Source: Erysipelotrichaceae bacterium
Lineage (GTDB): Bacteria; Bacillota_I; Bacilli_A; Erysipelotrichales; Erysipelotrichaceae
Reading direction: 5' to 3'
Assembly: GCA_017550145.1 (NCBI GenBank)
Contig: JAFZQG010000012.1
Coordinates: 1 to 64,000, forward strand
DNA: 64,000 nt
In this document: positions 12,398-18,503 of the stretch, in pieces
How the letters are laid out: each line of letters starts with the position of its first letter
How positions within the stretch are numbered: position 1 is the first letter of the stretch
Notes under the pieces: model-generated
Told to the model about the DNA's origin: nothing
Seen by the model: the letters and a program-made list of their open reading frames with translations, nothing else
Databases searched by the model: none
Position numbers and translations under genes: made by a program

Positions 12398-13780
12398 TCA
12401 GTATTTTGCGCTGTAACGGTCATAGACATTGACGATCATAGTGTTCTTATAGGCGTGAACTCTTGAAATAGCATGTCCATAATTGAGATGGACGTGGCCA
12501 TAGAACCAGAACCGCGGTTTAAGCTCTTTCAGCAGTCTGTTGAAACATTCAAAACCCTGGTGGGCATAATCATTCAGATCTCCATAGCCGGCAATCGGTG
12601 CGTGGCTTACTACGATATCGACACCTCCGGCTTTTCTGATTTTCCATTTCAGTTTTCTGATCCTTCTTTCCATCTGAACTTCGGTGTATTGATAATGGCC
12701 GTTACTGTAGCGGTATGAACCGCCTAGACCAAGGATCCTTATACCCTGATAGGTGATCAGATCATCGTCAATACAGATACAGCCCTGAGGTGGATCATTC
12801 AGTAAACGGTCATCATGATTACCGGGAATATAGAATAAAGGTTTGTTTGTAAGAGTGACAATATATTCGAGATACTGCGGACTGACATCACCGGCGGAAA
12901 TGATGAAGTCGGTATTTTCCAGAAGCTTTCGAACATTTTCCGAATACAGAGAAGGATTCTCTTCATCCGCAACGCATTCGATATTATAGAAGCCCTTACC
13001 GTAACTGAGACGTACTTTGTTTTCATTGATGATTTTGTCCATCTGCTTATCGGTCATTTCTGTAAGGAAGTCGTACGTATACATTTCTAACAGTGCTACC
13101 AGACAGTCGGCATGATTGGCCTTGATGCCTTTACGGGTCAGACAGGATGATAGTCTTTCAAAGAAACCGACGCAGGTTATCCTTTCTCTTCTTGTCCATT
13201 CATGTCCCTTTTCAAAACCGAGATATTTGCATAGTCTTTCATAATAACCAGGTTTGGAGAACTGCAAGGAATACAGTTTGGATTCCTTATAGAAATCAAG
13301 GAATTCATAATATAAAGAAATCTCTCTTCTTTCGCTTCTTTCCGGCAAGAGTCTGGTGACATCCAGTGTTATAAAAGGGGCACCGTAGGATTTTAAAACG
13401 GATACCCGTTTATTTCCTTCTTCGATGTAGAACTTGCCAAGGTACTCGTATGCTTTAGGCGAATCACCGATACCCTGATCGGAAAGATGATACTTGCAGA
13501 CACCGGTCCATTTGCGCGCAAATTCCGTCCGATCATTTAATAGCGGCATGAAGTTTGACGCAAAAGATAACTGACGGCCACTGGTCTTGGTTCCGACGAT
13601 AAGATCAGCCGGAACATCGATCTCACCGAGCTCCTGTGCCGTGCACTGATATTCGGATACGATGGTATCTAAAGCCGGTAAAAAAGGGCTTCTTTTTTTG
13701 AAGCGGTCATACAAATACTGCTTTACAGCCTTCTTGCGGGCATATGTGTATTGTTCACGTGCTTCGGAGCTGTTATCCAT
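12398..13780 (-). CDS. ParB-like domain fused to a metallophosphoesterase
   Basis: 460 residues. Residues 110-150 (YLGKFYIEEGNKRVSVLKSYGAPFITLDVTRLLP) resemble the ParB/Srx-like module that also precedes BMP-type lipoprotein domains in Firmicutes. Residues about 265-455 are a calcineurin-like phosphoesterase: GD at 297-298, GNHD at 320-323, SHAPIAGYGD and GHVH. The first metal motif is DEE (272-274) instead of DxH, as in a Firmicutes subfamily with VADEE..P. No SD; a -10 lies six bases upstream. Divergent from the nrdG-nrdD genes. Substrate unknown. Confidence 0.75.
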   Translation of the reverse strand: MDNSSEAREQYTYARKKAVKQYLYDRFKKRSPFLPALDTIVSEYQCTAQELGEIDVPADLIVGTKTSGRQLSFASNFMPLLNDRTEFARKWTGVCKYHLSDQGIGDSPKAYEYLGKFYIEEGNKRVSVLKSYGAPFITLDVTRLLPERSERREISLYYEFLDFYKESKLYSLQFSKPGYYERLCKYLGFEKGHEWTRRERITCVGFFERLSSCLTRKGIKANHADCLVALLEMYTYDFLTEMTDKQMDKIINENKVRLSYGKGFYNIECVADEENPSLYSENVRKLLENTDFIISAGDVSPQYLEYIVTLTNKPLFYIPGNHDDRLLNDPPQGCICIDDDLITYQGIRILGLGGSYRYSNGHYQYTEVQMERRIRKLKWKIRKAGGVDIVVSHAPIAGYGDLNDYAHQGFECFNRLLKELKPRFWFYGHVHLNYGHAISRVHAYKNTMIVNVYDRYSAKY

Positions 13781-13786
13781 AAGTTC

Positions 13787-13816
13787 ATTTTAATATTTAA
13801 GCCATAATAAAGCCAA
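13787..13816 (-). promoter_or_regulatory. Leaderless-type promoter of the phosphoesterase gene
   Basis: On the minus strand, TAAAAT (13787-13792) lies exactly 6 bases before the ATG, and TTGGCT (13811-13816) 18 bp further upstream. Transcription should start at or beside the A of ATG, and no SD exists. Confidence 0.6.
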
Positions 13817-13917
13817 TTTGGACAGCGATTTATACTGGTTCTAATATCTTTATGTCTGATAAAAATCGTGTCTTAAAAAGCTTAAAAATGCGTCTGATTT
13901 TATGAAAATTTTCAGTG

Positions 13918-13999
13918 ATATTTCCAGGAAATATTAAATGGTTGAAATTTCAATTTTTTATATTATTTTAGTTGAACTTTCAACTAAATACTCTATAAT
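13918..13999 (+). promoter_or_regulatory. nrdG promoter with MarR-type palindromic operators
   Basis: TTGAAC (13972-13977) and TATAAT (13994-13999) are 16 bp apart. The -35 is buried in a perfect palindrome, TTTAGTTGAA-CT-TTCAACTAAA (13967-13988). A second site of the same core, TTGAAATTTCAA, lies at 13942-13953. A third, different palindrome, ATATTTCC-A-GGAAATAT, lies at 13918-13934. Size and symmetry fit MarR dimers; the obvious candidate is the MarR domain of the protein encoded downstream. Confidence 0.75.
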
Positions 14000-14020
14000 G
14001 AGATTTACAAGGCAGAAATC

Positions 14021-15166
14021 ATGGGTGAGGAAAACTACTTAAGTCTGGACTCATCTATTCTATATCGCTGTAATCAGAAACACTACGATAAGCTGTTAAG
14101 TAAATACGATCTAGGTTATACACAACTCATTTTGTTGACGCAGATCTACGAGAATGAGGGTGTTTCTATGAACGAATTGGCTATAAAAGGAGTCTTCGAT
14201 AAAGGCACTATAACCAAGTCGATTCAAAGGCTTGAACAGTTAGGTTACGTAAAGATAGAGAATAGTGAAACGGATAAAAGACTAAAACTGTTATATACAT
14301 CGGACAAGGTTCAGGAAATCATGCCGGAACTCTATCGTATGCGTTCGGAATGGAATTCCTATCTGTCTGATGGCATCAGTTCCGCTGAACTGGATACCTA
14401 CAACTTAGTTCAGCGCAAACTCATCGAAAAGGCCAGAGAGTATACCGCAGAACTTGATGACGAAGGCATCAGATTCTACGGCTTACAGAAACTGACCCTG
14501 CTGGATTATCCCGGTAATATGGCCTGCACGGTCTTTACCGGTGGATGTAATTACAGATGTCCGTTCTGTCATAACCGCAGTCTCGTCTTCTTGAATGAAA
14601 ACGATGCGGAGATATCGACAGCAGATATCATGGACTTTCTTGAAACCCGTCACAAAGTCCTGGACGGTGTATGCATTACCGGCGGTGAACCGACACTGCA
14701 TAAAGGCCTGAAGGACTTTATCAGGAAAGTCAGAAGTTATGGACTCAAAGTCAAGCTCGATACCAACGGCACCAACTTTGAAGTCTTAAAAGAACTGGTT
14801 GAAGAAAAACTGGTTGATTATGTCGCCATGGACATCAAGAACTCTCCGGAAAAATATGCGGAGACGATCGGACTGGCGAATTGTGATCTAAGCGAGGTAG
14901 AAAAGAGCAAGAACTATCTGCTGGAAGATCATGTTGAATACGAATTCCGTACAACGGTGGTTAAGGAATTTCATGAGGTCGCAGACTTCGAAAAGATCGG
15001 TGAATGGATCAAGGGAGCCAGACACTACTATCTGCAGAACTTCGAAGATCATGGGACCTGCATCCGTCCGGACCTAAGTGAGGTAGGCACGGAAACGCTG
15101 GAGAAGATGAAAGAAACAGCCGCCCGATACGTTGAAAACTGCGAATTAAGAGGGATAAAGGAGTAA
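14021..15166 (+). CDS. nrdG: MarR-domain / anaerobic RNR activase (NrdG) fusion
   Basis: 381 residues. Residues 1-145 form a MarR winged-helix domain (YTQLILLTQIYENEGVSMNELAIKGVFDKGTITKSIQRLEQLGYVKI...DKRLKLLYTS). Residues about 149-381 are a radical-SAM activase of the NrdG type: CNYRCPFC holds the CxxxCxxC cluster ligands (176, 180, 183), then GGEPTLHKGL and VAMDIKNSPEKY. NrdG makes the glycyl radical in NrdD under anoxia. The gene is 4 bp from nrdD. SD is AAGG at 14009-14012. No stop or restart lies between the domains, so regulator and activase are one chain. Confidence 0.9.
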   Translation: MGEENYLSLDSSILYRCNQKHYDKLLSKYDLGYTQLILLTQIYENEGVSMNELAIKGVFDKGTITKSIQRLEQLGYVKIENSETDKRLKLLYTSDKVQEIMPELYRMRSEWNSYLSDGISSAELDTYNLVQRKLIEKAREYTAELDDEGIRFYGLQKLTLLDYPGNMACTVFTGGCNYRCPFCHNRSLVFLNENDAEISTADIMDFLETRHKVLDGVCITGGEPTLHKGLKDFIRKVRSYGLKVKLDTNGTNFEVLKELVEEKLVDYVAMDIKNSPEKYAETIGLANCDLSEVEKSKNYLLEDHVEYEFRTTVVKEFHEVADFEKIGEWIKGARHYYLQNFEDHGTCIRPDLSEVGTETLEKMKETAARYVENCELRGIKE

Positions 15167-15170
15167 CATT

Positions 15171-17549
15171 ATGTACCGCGTAGTAAAAAGAGATGGAAAA
15201 GTAGTAGATTTTGATTTAAGCAAGATTTCGGATGCGATCACCAAGGCATTTGATGCCTGCAAGAAAGATTATCACCCCGATGTGATCAACCTTCTGGCTT
15301 TAAGAGTAACTTCGGACTTTTCTTCAAAAGTCAAGGAAGAGAAAGTTACTGTTGAAGACATTCAGGACTCGGTCGAAAAAGTGCTTTCGGAAGCCGGTTA
15401 TCCGGATGTGGCCAAGGCTTACATTCTTTACAGAAAACAGCGTGAAAAGGCCAGAAATATCAGCAATACCATGCTGGACTACAAGAAACTGGTCGACTCA
15501 TATGTCAATGCGATCGACTGGAGAGTCAAGGAGAACTCAACCGTTACATATTCGGTCGGCGGTCTGATCCTTTCCAACTCCGGTGCGGTTACCGCCAACT
15601 ACTGGCTCTCGGAAGTCTATGACGAAGAGATCGGCAGTGCTCACAAAGACGGTGACATGCATATCCATGACTTATCGATGCTGACAGGCTACTGTGCCGG
15701 CTGGTCATTGAAACAGCTGATCCAGGAAGGCTTAGGCGGCGTCAATGGCAAGATCACATCAACCCCAGCCAATCACTTAAGCACTTTATGTAACCAGATG
15801 GTCAACTTCTTAGGCATCATGCAGAACGAATGGGCAGGCGCTCAGGCCTTCTCATCCTTCGATACCTACCTGGCACCGTTTGTCAAGATCGACAACCTTT
15901 CCTACAAGGAAGTCAAGCAGAATATCCAGTCATTCATCTACGGCGTTAATACTCCTTCACGTTGGGGTACGCAGGCACCGTTCACCAATGTCACTTTAGA
16001 CTGGACTGTTCCGGAAGACCTGGCTGATCAGTACTGCATCGTCGGCGGCAGAACCCTTGATTTCAAATACAAGGACTGCAAGAAGGAAATGGATATGGTA
16101 AACAAAGCCTTCATCGAAGTCATGATCGAAGGCGATGCCAACGGCAGAGGATTCCAGTATCCGATTCCTACATATTCAATCACCAGAGAATTCGACTGGT
16201 CAGAGACTGAGAACAATAAGCTCTTATTCGAAATGACAGCCAAGTATGGTACGCCTTACTTCTCCAACTATGTCAATTCGGATATGAAGCCATCTGACAT
16301 CAGATCGATGTGCTGCCGTCTGAGACTCGACTTAAGAGAACTCAGAAAGAAATCCGGCGGATTCTTCGGCTCAGGCGAATCAACAGGTTCAGTAGGCGTT
16401 GTAACACTTAACTTGCCGAGACTGGCATATCTGGCTAAAGACAAGGAAGACTTCTACAAGCGCCTTGATAAGCTGATGGATATCGCAGCCCGTTCCTTAC
16501 ACGTAAAGCGTGAAGTCATCACGAAACTGCTGGATAACGGACTCTATCCTTACACCAAGAGATATCTGGGAACTTTCAATAACCACTTCTCAACGATCGG
16601 TCTGGTCGGTATGAACGAGGCCTGTCTGAATGCCAACTGGATCAGAAAAGACCTCACGGATCCGGTTTCACAGGAATTCGCGATCGAAGTACTCAACTAT
16701 ATGCGCAAGAGACTTGTCCAGTATCAGGAAACCTACCACGATCTGTACAACCTCGAAGCCACTCCGGCTGAATCAACAGCCTACAGACTGGCTAAGCACG
16801 ACAAGGAAAAATATCCTGATATCATCACTGCAGGCAAGGAAGGTGAAACACCTTACTACACCAACTCCTCACACCTGCCGGTCGGTTATACCGAGGATAT
16901 CTTCTCCGCTCTGGATGTCCAGGATCAGTTACAGACCCTTTATACTTCCGGTACGGTCTTCCATTGCTTCTTGGGTGAAAAACTTCCTGACTGGAAAGCT
17001 GCAGCTAACCTGGTAAAGAAGATTTCCGATAACTATAAGCTTCCTTACTACACGATGTCTCCGACCTATTCGATCTGTCCGGAACACGGCTATATTACAG
17101 GTGAAGCCTATACCTGTCCGAAGTGCGGCAAGAAGACCGAAGTCTGGTCAAGAATTACCGGTTACTACCGTCCGATCCAGAACTGGAACGACGGCAAGGT
17201 CCAGGAATTCAAACACCGTAAGGAATACAATATCGAATCTTCCGTCATGAAGGCCAGAGACATCATCGCTGATGTCAGCGAAGCCAAGAAGGAAGAGGAA
17301 GTAAAGATGAGCACCGGTTACGATATTCCGACCATCTATGTTCAGGATCATTGCCCTAAGTGCAAGGGTGCCGAGCAGCGTTTACAGGTCAGCGGTATCG
17401 AACACCGTATCGTCAACTGTTCCGAAGATATGGATGAAGCCAGAAGACTGAATCTGACGGAAACTCCTACCATCATCGATCCTGATGGCACGATGTTTGT
17501 GGGAGCCAACGCCGCAGCCGACTGGATGAAGTATCATAACAGCAAATAA
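15171..17549 (+). CDS. nrdD: Anaerobic ribonucleoside-triphosphate reductase with C-terminal glutaredoxin domain
   Basis: 792 residues. An ATP-cone is at 1-95 (VVKRDGKVVDFDLSKI). The large glycyl-radical barrel follows (DGDMHIHDLSMLTGYCAGWSL, GVNTPSRWGTQAPFTN). A zinc knuckle (CPEH...CPKC) precedes the glycyl-radical loop RITGYYRPIQNW with Gly664. Normal NrdD ends soon after. Here residues 713-792 add a glutaredoxin/NrdH-like domain with CPKC (728/731) and TETPTII. A purine tract GGAAGAGGAAG precedes the in-frame ATG 17307 (Met713), so a free redoxin may also be made. The enzyme reduces NTPs without oxygen. Confidence 0.95.
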   Translation: MYRVVKRDGKVVDFDLSKISDAITKAFDACKKDYHPDVINLLALRVTSDFSSKVKEEKVTVEDIQDSVEKVLSEAGYPDVAKAYILYRKQREKARNISNTMLDYKKLVDSYVNAIDWRVKENSTVTYSVGGLILSNSGAVTANYWLSEVYDEEIGSAHKDGDMHIHDLSMLTGYCAGWSLKQLIQEGLGGVNGKITSTPANHLSTLCNQMVNFLGIMQNEWAGAQAFSSFDTYLAPFVKIDNLSYKEVKQNIQSFIYGVNTPSRWGTQAPFTNVTLDWTVPEDLADQYCIVGGRTLDFKYKDCKKEMDMVNKAFIEVMIEGDANGRGFQYPIPTYSITREFDWSETENNKLLFEMTAKYGTPYFSNYVNSDMKPSDIRSMCCRLRLDLRELRKKSGGFFGSGESTGSVGVVTLNLPRLAYLAKDKEDFYKRLDKLMDIAARSLHVKREVITKLLDNGLYPYTKRYLGTFNNHFSTIGLVGMNEACLNANWIRKDLTDPVSQEFAIEVLNYMRKRLVQYQETYHDLYNLEATPAESTAYRLAKHDKEKYPDIITAGKEGETPYYTNSSHLPVGYTEDIFSALDVQDQLQTLYTSGTVFHCFLGEKLPDWKAAANLVKKISDNYKLPYYTMSPTYSICPEHGYITGEAYTCPKCGKKTEVWSRITGYYRPIQNWNDGKVQEFKHRKEYNIESSVMKARDIIADVSEAKKEEEVKMSTGYDIPTIYVQDHCPKCKGAEQRLQVSGIEHRIVNCSEDMDEARRLNLTETPTIIDPDGTMFVGANAAADWMKYHNSK

Positions 17550-17594: not shown

Positions 17595-18503
17595 ATGGAT
17601 AAATTATATGATGTGGCAGTAATCGGCGGGGGACCGGCAGGTCTCACCGCAGCTTTATATGCCTTAAGAAACGGCAAGTCTGTCGTGATCATCGAGAAGT
17701 CTGTTTTCGGCGGACAGATCGTCAATTCCCCGAAAGTCGAAAACATTCCAGGATTTGAAGCGATCAGTGGTGATGAATTTGGCGATCTGATGCTGAATCA
17801 GGTCAGCAAACAGGGAGCGGAAATAGTATTTGACGAAGTCAAAAGAATCGAAAGCGTCAATGAAACGGTAAGTGTCTTCCTGGATCTGGGTGAACCGCTT
17901 TATGCAAAGACCGCAATATTAGCTACCGGTACGACACACAGAACTTTAGGTTTACCAGAAGAAGAAAGATTCATCGGCAAGAGTATTCATTTCTGTGCAG
18001 TCTGCGACGGAAACTTTTACAAGGATAAGACGGTCGTAATGATCGGCGGTGGCAATTCCGCTTTTGTGGAAACCGGTCATCTGACGGATATCGTCAAGAA
18101 GGTGATCATGCTGCAGGACTTACCGATGTTTACAGCGGAACAGAAACTGCAGGAACAGATATTATCTAAAGAAAATGTAGAGACTCATACCGGAACCAGG
18201 ATCATTTCCTATGAGATCACTGATGATAAGCTAACCGGTGTCCGTTATGAAGAAAACGGCGAAGAGAAAGTTGCGGAATGTGACGGTGTCTTTTTAGCAG
18301 TAGGTCTGATTCCGGATAACGGCGCTTTCGCAAATGTCGCAAAACTTGATGAAAGAGGCTACTTTGTAGCTGATGAATACGGTAAGACTATCACGAATAA
18401 TGTCTTTGTAGCGGGAGACTGTCGAACCAAATCCTTAAGACAGGTTGCGACTGCCTGCTCCGATGGCGCCAACGCGGCAATCGAAGCCTGCAAGCTATTA
18501 TAA
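17595..18503 (+). CDS. trxB: Thioredoxin reductase
   Basis: 302 residues of the low-molecular-weight TrxB class: FAD-binding GGGPAGL at the N-terminus, redox centre CAVCDG (about residue 134), NAD(P)H-binding GGGNSAFVE, and the C-terminal FAD motif VFVAGDCR. The enzyme passes NADPH electrons to thioredoxin or glutaredoxin-like proteins. It follows nrdD by 45 bp, beyond a terminator. Inference: it recharges the CPKC redoxin domain fused to NrdD, which would make nrdG-nrdD-trxB a self-contained reduction unit. GAAGAGG serves as SD. Confidence 0.92.
   Translation: MDKLYDVAVIGGGPAGLTAALYALRNGKSVVIIEKSVFGGQIVNSPKVENIPGFEAISGDEFGDLMLNQVSKQGAEIVFDEVKRIESVNETVSVFLDLGEPLYAKTAILATGTTHRTLGLPEEERFIGKSIHFCAVCDGNFYKDKTVVMIGGGNSAFVETGHLTDIVKKVIMLQDLPMFTAEQKLQEQILSKENVETHTGTRIISYEITDDKLTGVRYEENGEEKVAECDGVFLAVGLIPDNGAFANVAKLDERGYFVADEYGKTITNNVFVAGDCRTKSLRQVATACSDGANAAIEACKLL

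Follow-up and report, generated by a model that had tools for sequence, protein, structure and literature searches.

Organization of the locus

The window, a stretch of 64,000 nucleotides from an Erysipelotrichaceae bacterium, carries an operon in which the gene for a MarR–NrdG fusion protein precedes nrdD, which encodes the catalytic subunit of class III ribonucleotide reductase (RNR). The features of the operon and of its promoter region are as follows.

12398–13780, reverse strand: divergent gene for a calcineurin-like phosphoesterase (Pfam), with the intergenic region in common with the fusion gene
13939–13956, no strand: site 1, upstream dyad TGGTTGAAATTTCAATTT (GTTGAAATTTCAAT, core 13941–13954), centre 30 bp (about three helical turns) from site 2
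13967–13988, no strand: site 2, 22-bp dyad TTTAGTTGAACTTTCAACTAAA with perfect 10-bp arms, over the -35 element
13972–13999, forward strand: sigma-70-like promoter TTGAAC-16-TATAAT (TTGAAC 13972–13977, TATAAT 13994–13999)
14021–14455, forward strand: MarR winged-helix domain of the fusion, residues 1–145 (Pfam, AF2 model, Foldseek)
14201–14239, forward strand: recognition helix KGTITKSIQRLEQ, residues 61–73
14456–14473, forward strand: linker, residues 146–151, short and poorly conserved (homologue alignment, AF2 model)
14474–15166, forward strand: NrdG2 radical-SAM activase domain, residues 152–381, with the stop codon (TIGR02495, Radical_SAM, Foldseek)
14546–14569, forward strand: [4Fe-4S]/SAM motif CNYRCPFC, residues 176–183 (sequence motif, homologue alignment)
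15171–17549, forward strand: nrdD, starting 4 bp past the fusion gene (profile searches and motif checks)
17595–18503, forward strand: thioredoxin-reductase-like (trxB-like) gene, 3′ of nrdD (TIGR01292, 275.8 bits, under the cut-off of 343)

The fusion gene, read from the open reading frames of the window, occupies 14021–15166 on the forward strand and encodes 381 amino acids with a single plausible ATG and no internal stop codon. Regarding its domains, Pfam places MarR_2 at residues 29–87 and Radical_SAM at residues 171–306, each above the cut-off. The MarR family models PF12802 and PF01047 score 45.7 bits (cut-off 27) and 38.7 bits (cut-off 24.6), respectively, and the NCBIfam model of NrdG2, TIGR02495, scores 215 bits (cut-off 131) over residues 152–341. 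The cysteines of the CxxxCxxC motif are C176, C180 and C183, and a GGEP motif is also present. The AF2 monomer model (pLDDT 89.9) contains a complete six-helix MarR fold (helices 12–29, 33–44, 50–57, 61–73, 95–116 and 121–145), with a dimerisation helix at either end of the fold; a radical-SAM barrel comes after it. Foldseek matched the MarR half to the MarR structures 3bpv and 3bpx (TMt 0.86 for 3bpx_B) and the NrdG half to the pyruvate formate-lyase (PFL) activating enzyme 3cb8. The first-pass annotation, made from the letters of this DNA, had described one uninterrupted 381-residue frame, a MarR domain joined to a complete NrdG and a CxxxCxxC motif at 176–183, and all three descriptions hold.

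The NrdD of the window contains an ATP-cone (residues 3–92), C175, the radical cysteine at 381/382 (SMCCRLRLDL), zinc cysteines and the glycyl radical site G664 in RITGYYRP. Its tail is a glutaredoxin-like domain with CPKC (window 17331–17447). This tail, together with the trxB-like gene, suggests that the reductant is a thiol rather than formate, and it is plausible that the trxB-like gene product serves the electron supply.

Both dyads of the promoter region are of the TTGAA-N2-TTCAA type, and the perfect 22-bp one covers the -35 element, as first described. The exact 18-mer TAGTTGAANNTTCAACTA was found only once in a search of the home genome, at the fusion promoter, and the dyad was therefore rejected as a general genome repeat. 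Two copies with two mismatches lie elsewhere in that genome, one in a terminator-like hairpin at a gene end (L043) and the other in coding sequence (L044). When one mismatch is allowed, the 64-kb window yields four strand matches of the dyad against 2.7 expected, so that the presence of two dyads in the window does not in itself exceed chance; it is the conservation, together with the genome-wide uniqueness of the exact 18-mer, that goes beyond chance. No NrdR box was detected within three mismatches near 13780–14020. The first-pass annotation needs correcting on one point alone: its boundary at 13918 also includes an unrelated conserved palindrome. This perfect palindrome, ATTTCCAGGAAAT (13920–13932), lies upstream of the dyads and is conserved in the home genus as ATTTCCRGGAAAT; an exact copy recurs just once elsewhere in the genome, in intergenic DNA before a ribosomal S10-like operon (L321), and the palindrome is possibly the site of another regulator. 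A near-palindrome, ATGAAAATTTTCAG/T, at window positions 13901–13914 is also found upstream in several same-genus homologues.

Conservation of the fusion and of its dyad

Full-length fusions are present in 31 of the 35 other genomes of the same genus. Across the order, other genera and a second family included, well over 100 genomes carry them, and they also occur in family f21 of the class; the architecture is thus widespread. Elsewhere in the class, stand-alone NrdG2 (about 235 amino acids) is the rule, and the alignment of these relatives begins at about query residue 150, without the MarR half. For comparison, 82 full-length fusions were set against 19 stand-alone nrdG2 genes; most of the compared genomes are metagenome assemblies, and the counts treat related genomes as independent. 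The recovery of full-length proteins in 82 homologues from many genomes excludes an assembly or frame error as the source of the fusion. An internal start yielding a separate NrdG was likewise rejected, as an SD-like sequence with an in-frame start between the domains (residues 133–156) appears in only 10 of the 82 homologues, at positions that vary between them, and none is present in the window gene. Neither a stop nor a conserved internal start separates the domains in the 82 homologues, which supports a genuine fusion over a frame artefact. No description of a MarR–NrdG protein was found in the open-licence papers searched.

The dyad was scored as TAGTTG-N6-CAACTA in the 150 bp upstream of the gene, with up to two of the 12 positions mismatched, and dinucleotide shuffles served as a control. 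It was found upstream of 72/82 fusions (65/82 with up to one mismatch), in contrast to 1/19 stand-alone nrdG2 genes (0/19) and to 0.95% of the shuffles (0.05%); the conservation upstream of the fusion is therefore clear. Among the 82 homologues, the putative DNA-contact residues D60, K61, G62, L71, D85 and R87 are 99–100% constant; D60, the recognition helix and the wing motif D85-K86-R87-x-K89 make up the most constant putative DNA-contact residues. The dyads are placed in two ways, either over the -35 element, with the centre 16 bp upstream of the start of the -10 hexamer, or at about +8, 20 bp downstream of that start; both positions would suit repression. In the home genus, paired dyads are spaced by 30–33, 21 or 43 bp, near three, two and four helical turns, respectively. 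The spacing of 30–33 bp between sites 1 and 2 is kept in most same-genus homologues, in which the distance from TATAAT to the dyad is also constant. An enzyme and a DNA-binding domain in one chain, with conserved sites at nrd promoters, make this protein a candidate bifunctional enzyme-repressor.

A second nrdD as a putative target in trans

When 46 genomes were searched for the exact dyad, many matches adjoined a second, distant nrdD, whose product shares about 24% identity with the NrdD of the window. All examined fusion genomes with a second nrdD (n = 36) were then scored for a dyad within 250 bp before that gene. It was present in 25/36 (up to two mismatches) or 23/36 (up to one); in the remaining 11/36 it was absent, and trans control is therefore not universal. 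Among 20 fusion-less genomes, none has a dyad with zero or one mismatch at nrdD. The association of the dyad at nrdD with the fusion gives a Fisher p of about 3e-6, a value that ignores the kinship of the genomes. Moreover, the own and trans sites of a genome covary in the inner base of the dyad (TTGA or TTGG; Spearman 0.87, permutation p 0.0002), which is what a single protein reading both would predict. The fused regulator thus appears, from these comparisons, to act also in trans on the second nrdD, a role absent from the earlier description.

Several sites resemble the fusion dyad. The sole fusion-less case with two mismatches, G313, bears a different motif, GTTGCA-N2-TGCAAC. More generally, the fusion-less genomes with stand-alone NrdG2 G173 (L318), G313 (L308) and G277 (L309) have a canonical nrdD promoter with a dyad of the GTTGCAA-N2-GCAAC type, and these sites were rejected as the fusion dyad because the motif differs. 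Next to nrdD in G173, in divergent orientation, lies a gene that resembles a Crp/Fnr-type regulator. In G087, a free-standing MarR gene (L195) encodes a protein with 30% identity to the MarR domain of the fusion, and its own promoter bears TAGTTGCATAAACAACTA. This protein is possibly a relative of the ancestral unfused repressor, and, judging from its site, other MarR proteins might read such dyads.

Lineages with catalytically dead partners

In some lineages, the radical-cysteine loop SMCCRLRLDL is missing from the NrdD encoded beside the fusion. These are one large f1 clade (Faecalitalea, Faecalicoccus, Holdemanella, Catenisphaera and Floccifex), Eggerthia catenaformis and the cluster of G157, G092, G103, G261 and G262. 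C175 is usually lost as well, and the glycyl radical domain is lost in six genomes. In the NrdD of Prevotella copri, what both cysteines and the glycine do has been established (PMC11226230). The ATP-cone is kept in all of the dead linked NrdDs, and the C-terminal glutaredoxin-like tail is absent from them. Some of the NrdG halves linked to dead NrdDs lack CxxxCxxC or GGE; in G261/G262 and Absicoccus (L273), CxxxCxxC is lost and the putative DNA-contact residues are kept, and G261/G262 also retain the trans dyad. Decay as pseudogenes was rejected on the basis of open frames and a dN/dS of about 0.07–0.12 in the gene pairs where it was computable; the putative DNA-contact residues also persist in these lineages.

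In the 14 genomes that combine a dead linked NrdD with a second nrdD, the dyad is found at the second nrdD in all 14, and the local dyad is gone in nine; the second NrdD is intact where checked. Of the ten fusions without a local dyad, counter-examples at first sight, nine belong to these lineages, in which the dyad lies at the working nrdD. Tree parsimony, with G263 recoded as dead, requires at least three conversions to a dead linked NrdD. The simplest account of these patterns is that the DNA-binding function would be selected independently of activase catalysis. This apparent survival of the regulator after the loss of catalysis is likewise absent from the first-pass annotation.

Proposed mechanism and alternatives

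NrdR is regarded as a near-universal repressor of RNR genes. A search with PF22811 found NrdR in none of the 395 genomes of the class, and no class I or II RNR (PF02867) was found in the home genome, which is 94% complete; the fusion system is therefore in a good position to take over the job of NrdR. It is not a one-for-one replacement, since NrdR is missing class-wide, including from members without the fusion. With a probability put at roughly 0.8, the fusion is a bifunctional activase-repressor of class III RNR, which would take the role of NrdR in a class without detectable NrdR. The NrdG2 half would activate the neighbouring NrdD, and the MarR half, as a dimer, would bind the TAGTTG-N6-CAACTA dyads at nrd promoters and repress transcription of its own nrdG-nrdD operon and, where present, often of the second nrdD in trans. 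The control variable is probably the state of the partner NrdD, passed on through the NrdG half: either the loading of its ATP-cone with ATP or dATP, or how far the activase occupies it. In some lineages, the fusion and the NrdD next to it may have given up catalysis and turned into a dedicated regulator. Binding, the repressive sign and the signal are all inferred here from genome comparison.

Among the alternatives, stoichiometric autoregulation is the least improbable, though still unlikely. The free activase-repressor would repress, and unactivated NrdD would sequester it and relieve repression, so that activase levels would follow NrdD with no small-molecule ligand. The covalent linkage of activase and repressor is in favour of this scheme, as are the retention of the operon NrdD beside the fusion even when it is catalytically dead and the fact that NrdD, once activated, no longer requires NrdG (PMC4009431, PMC11226230). 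However, it leaves unexplained both the ATP-cone of the dead NrdDs and the control of a second, distantly related nrdD.

The oxygen or cluster state as the signal, such that loss of [4Fe-4S] from the NrdG half alters DNA binding and the operon follows redox, is improbable. CxxxCxxC is kept in most fusions and NrdG clusters are oxygen-sensitive (PMC4009431), but in Absicoccus and G261/G262 the DNA-contact residues outlive the motif under purifying selection, in the latter two together with the trans dyad, and a home organism that seemingly has class III RNR only leaves an oxygen switch less to choose between. The suggestion of the first-pass annotation that expression could follow the Fe-S cluster or oxygen is weakened accordingly by the G261/G262 fusions. 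Such a signal is possible in the ancestral form and is not required in lineages without the cluster motif. Sensing through NrdD, by the ATP-cone or by occupancy, appears to fit the retained parts better than an oxygen or Fe-S switch, which is the less likely of the two.

Slightly less probable again is a chance fusion of an ordinary MarR repressor that senses a phenolic, a thiol or an oxidant unrelated to dNTP supply. The predicted MarR fold is full, down to the dimerisation helices that border the ligand pocket usual in this family; against this stand the recurrence of nrd operons as targets, the retention of the fusion across the order and a target that follows nrdD in trans. That another regulator reads the dyads, the fused MarR domain being a relic or a protein-interaction module, is very improbable despite the free-standing MarR genes of these genomes, one of which (in G087) carries a related dyad in its promoter, as the dyad tracks the fusion rather than stand-alone nrdG2, the helix-4 and wing residues are near-invariant, and own and trans dyads covary.

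The activase-repressor reading can be carried one step further, at odds that fall somewhat short of even. The MarR–NrdG protein with a dead ATP-cone NrdD might sense ATP/dATP and repress a separate, working nrdD; it would then be an independent equivalent of NrdR, assembled from components of RNR itself, with at least three origins from an ancestral working activase-repressor.

Comparison with known regulators

In a class of bacteria without detectable NrdR, many of them from the gut, the fusion would provide an alternative dNTP control located physically inside the enzyme system. Cultured carriers include Kandleria vitulina, Sharpea azabuensis, Longicatena caecimuris, Holdemania, Dielma, Faecalitalea, Eggerthia and Holdemanella, and the pseudoenzyme lineages allow sensing to be separated from catalysis.

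NrdR consists of a Zn-ribbon and an ATP-cone and binds a pair of boxes that lie whole helical turns apart (PMC4009431, PMC9110341, PMC12051234). The fusion system shares with it the putative RNR-specific control and, in the home genus, two promoter sites about whole helical turns apart; the pseudo-NrdD lineages also pair an ATP-cone protein with a DNA-binding protein, putatively controlling a separate RNR operon. Unlike NrdR, the fusion has a MarR winged helix and a different dyad, its ATP-cone resides on a separate polypeptide, NrdD, and no Pfam match to the NrdR architecture (Zn-ribbon and ATP-cone) was obtained for it. As an NrdG2 activase, it has the TIGR02495 region (residues 152–341), CxxxCxxC, GGEP and the adjacent nrdD in common with the family, whereas stand-alone relatives in the class have neither the MarR half nor the dyad. 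With the MarR autoregulators (MarR, MgrA and SlyA), it shares the fold, the wing motif and an inverted repeat of approximately 18 bp over its own promoter; here, however, the domain is fused to an enzyme of the putatively regulated pathway, with no separate repressor gene. PutA and BirA, known as "trigger enzymes", are pathway enzymes that carry their own DNA-binding domain and repress pathway genes. The fusion differs from them in being a radical-SAM glycyl-radical activase with putative control over class III RNR, and in belonging to a system that has turned into a catalytically dead, putative regulator in at least three lineages.
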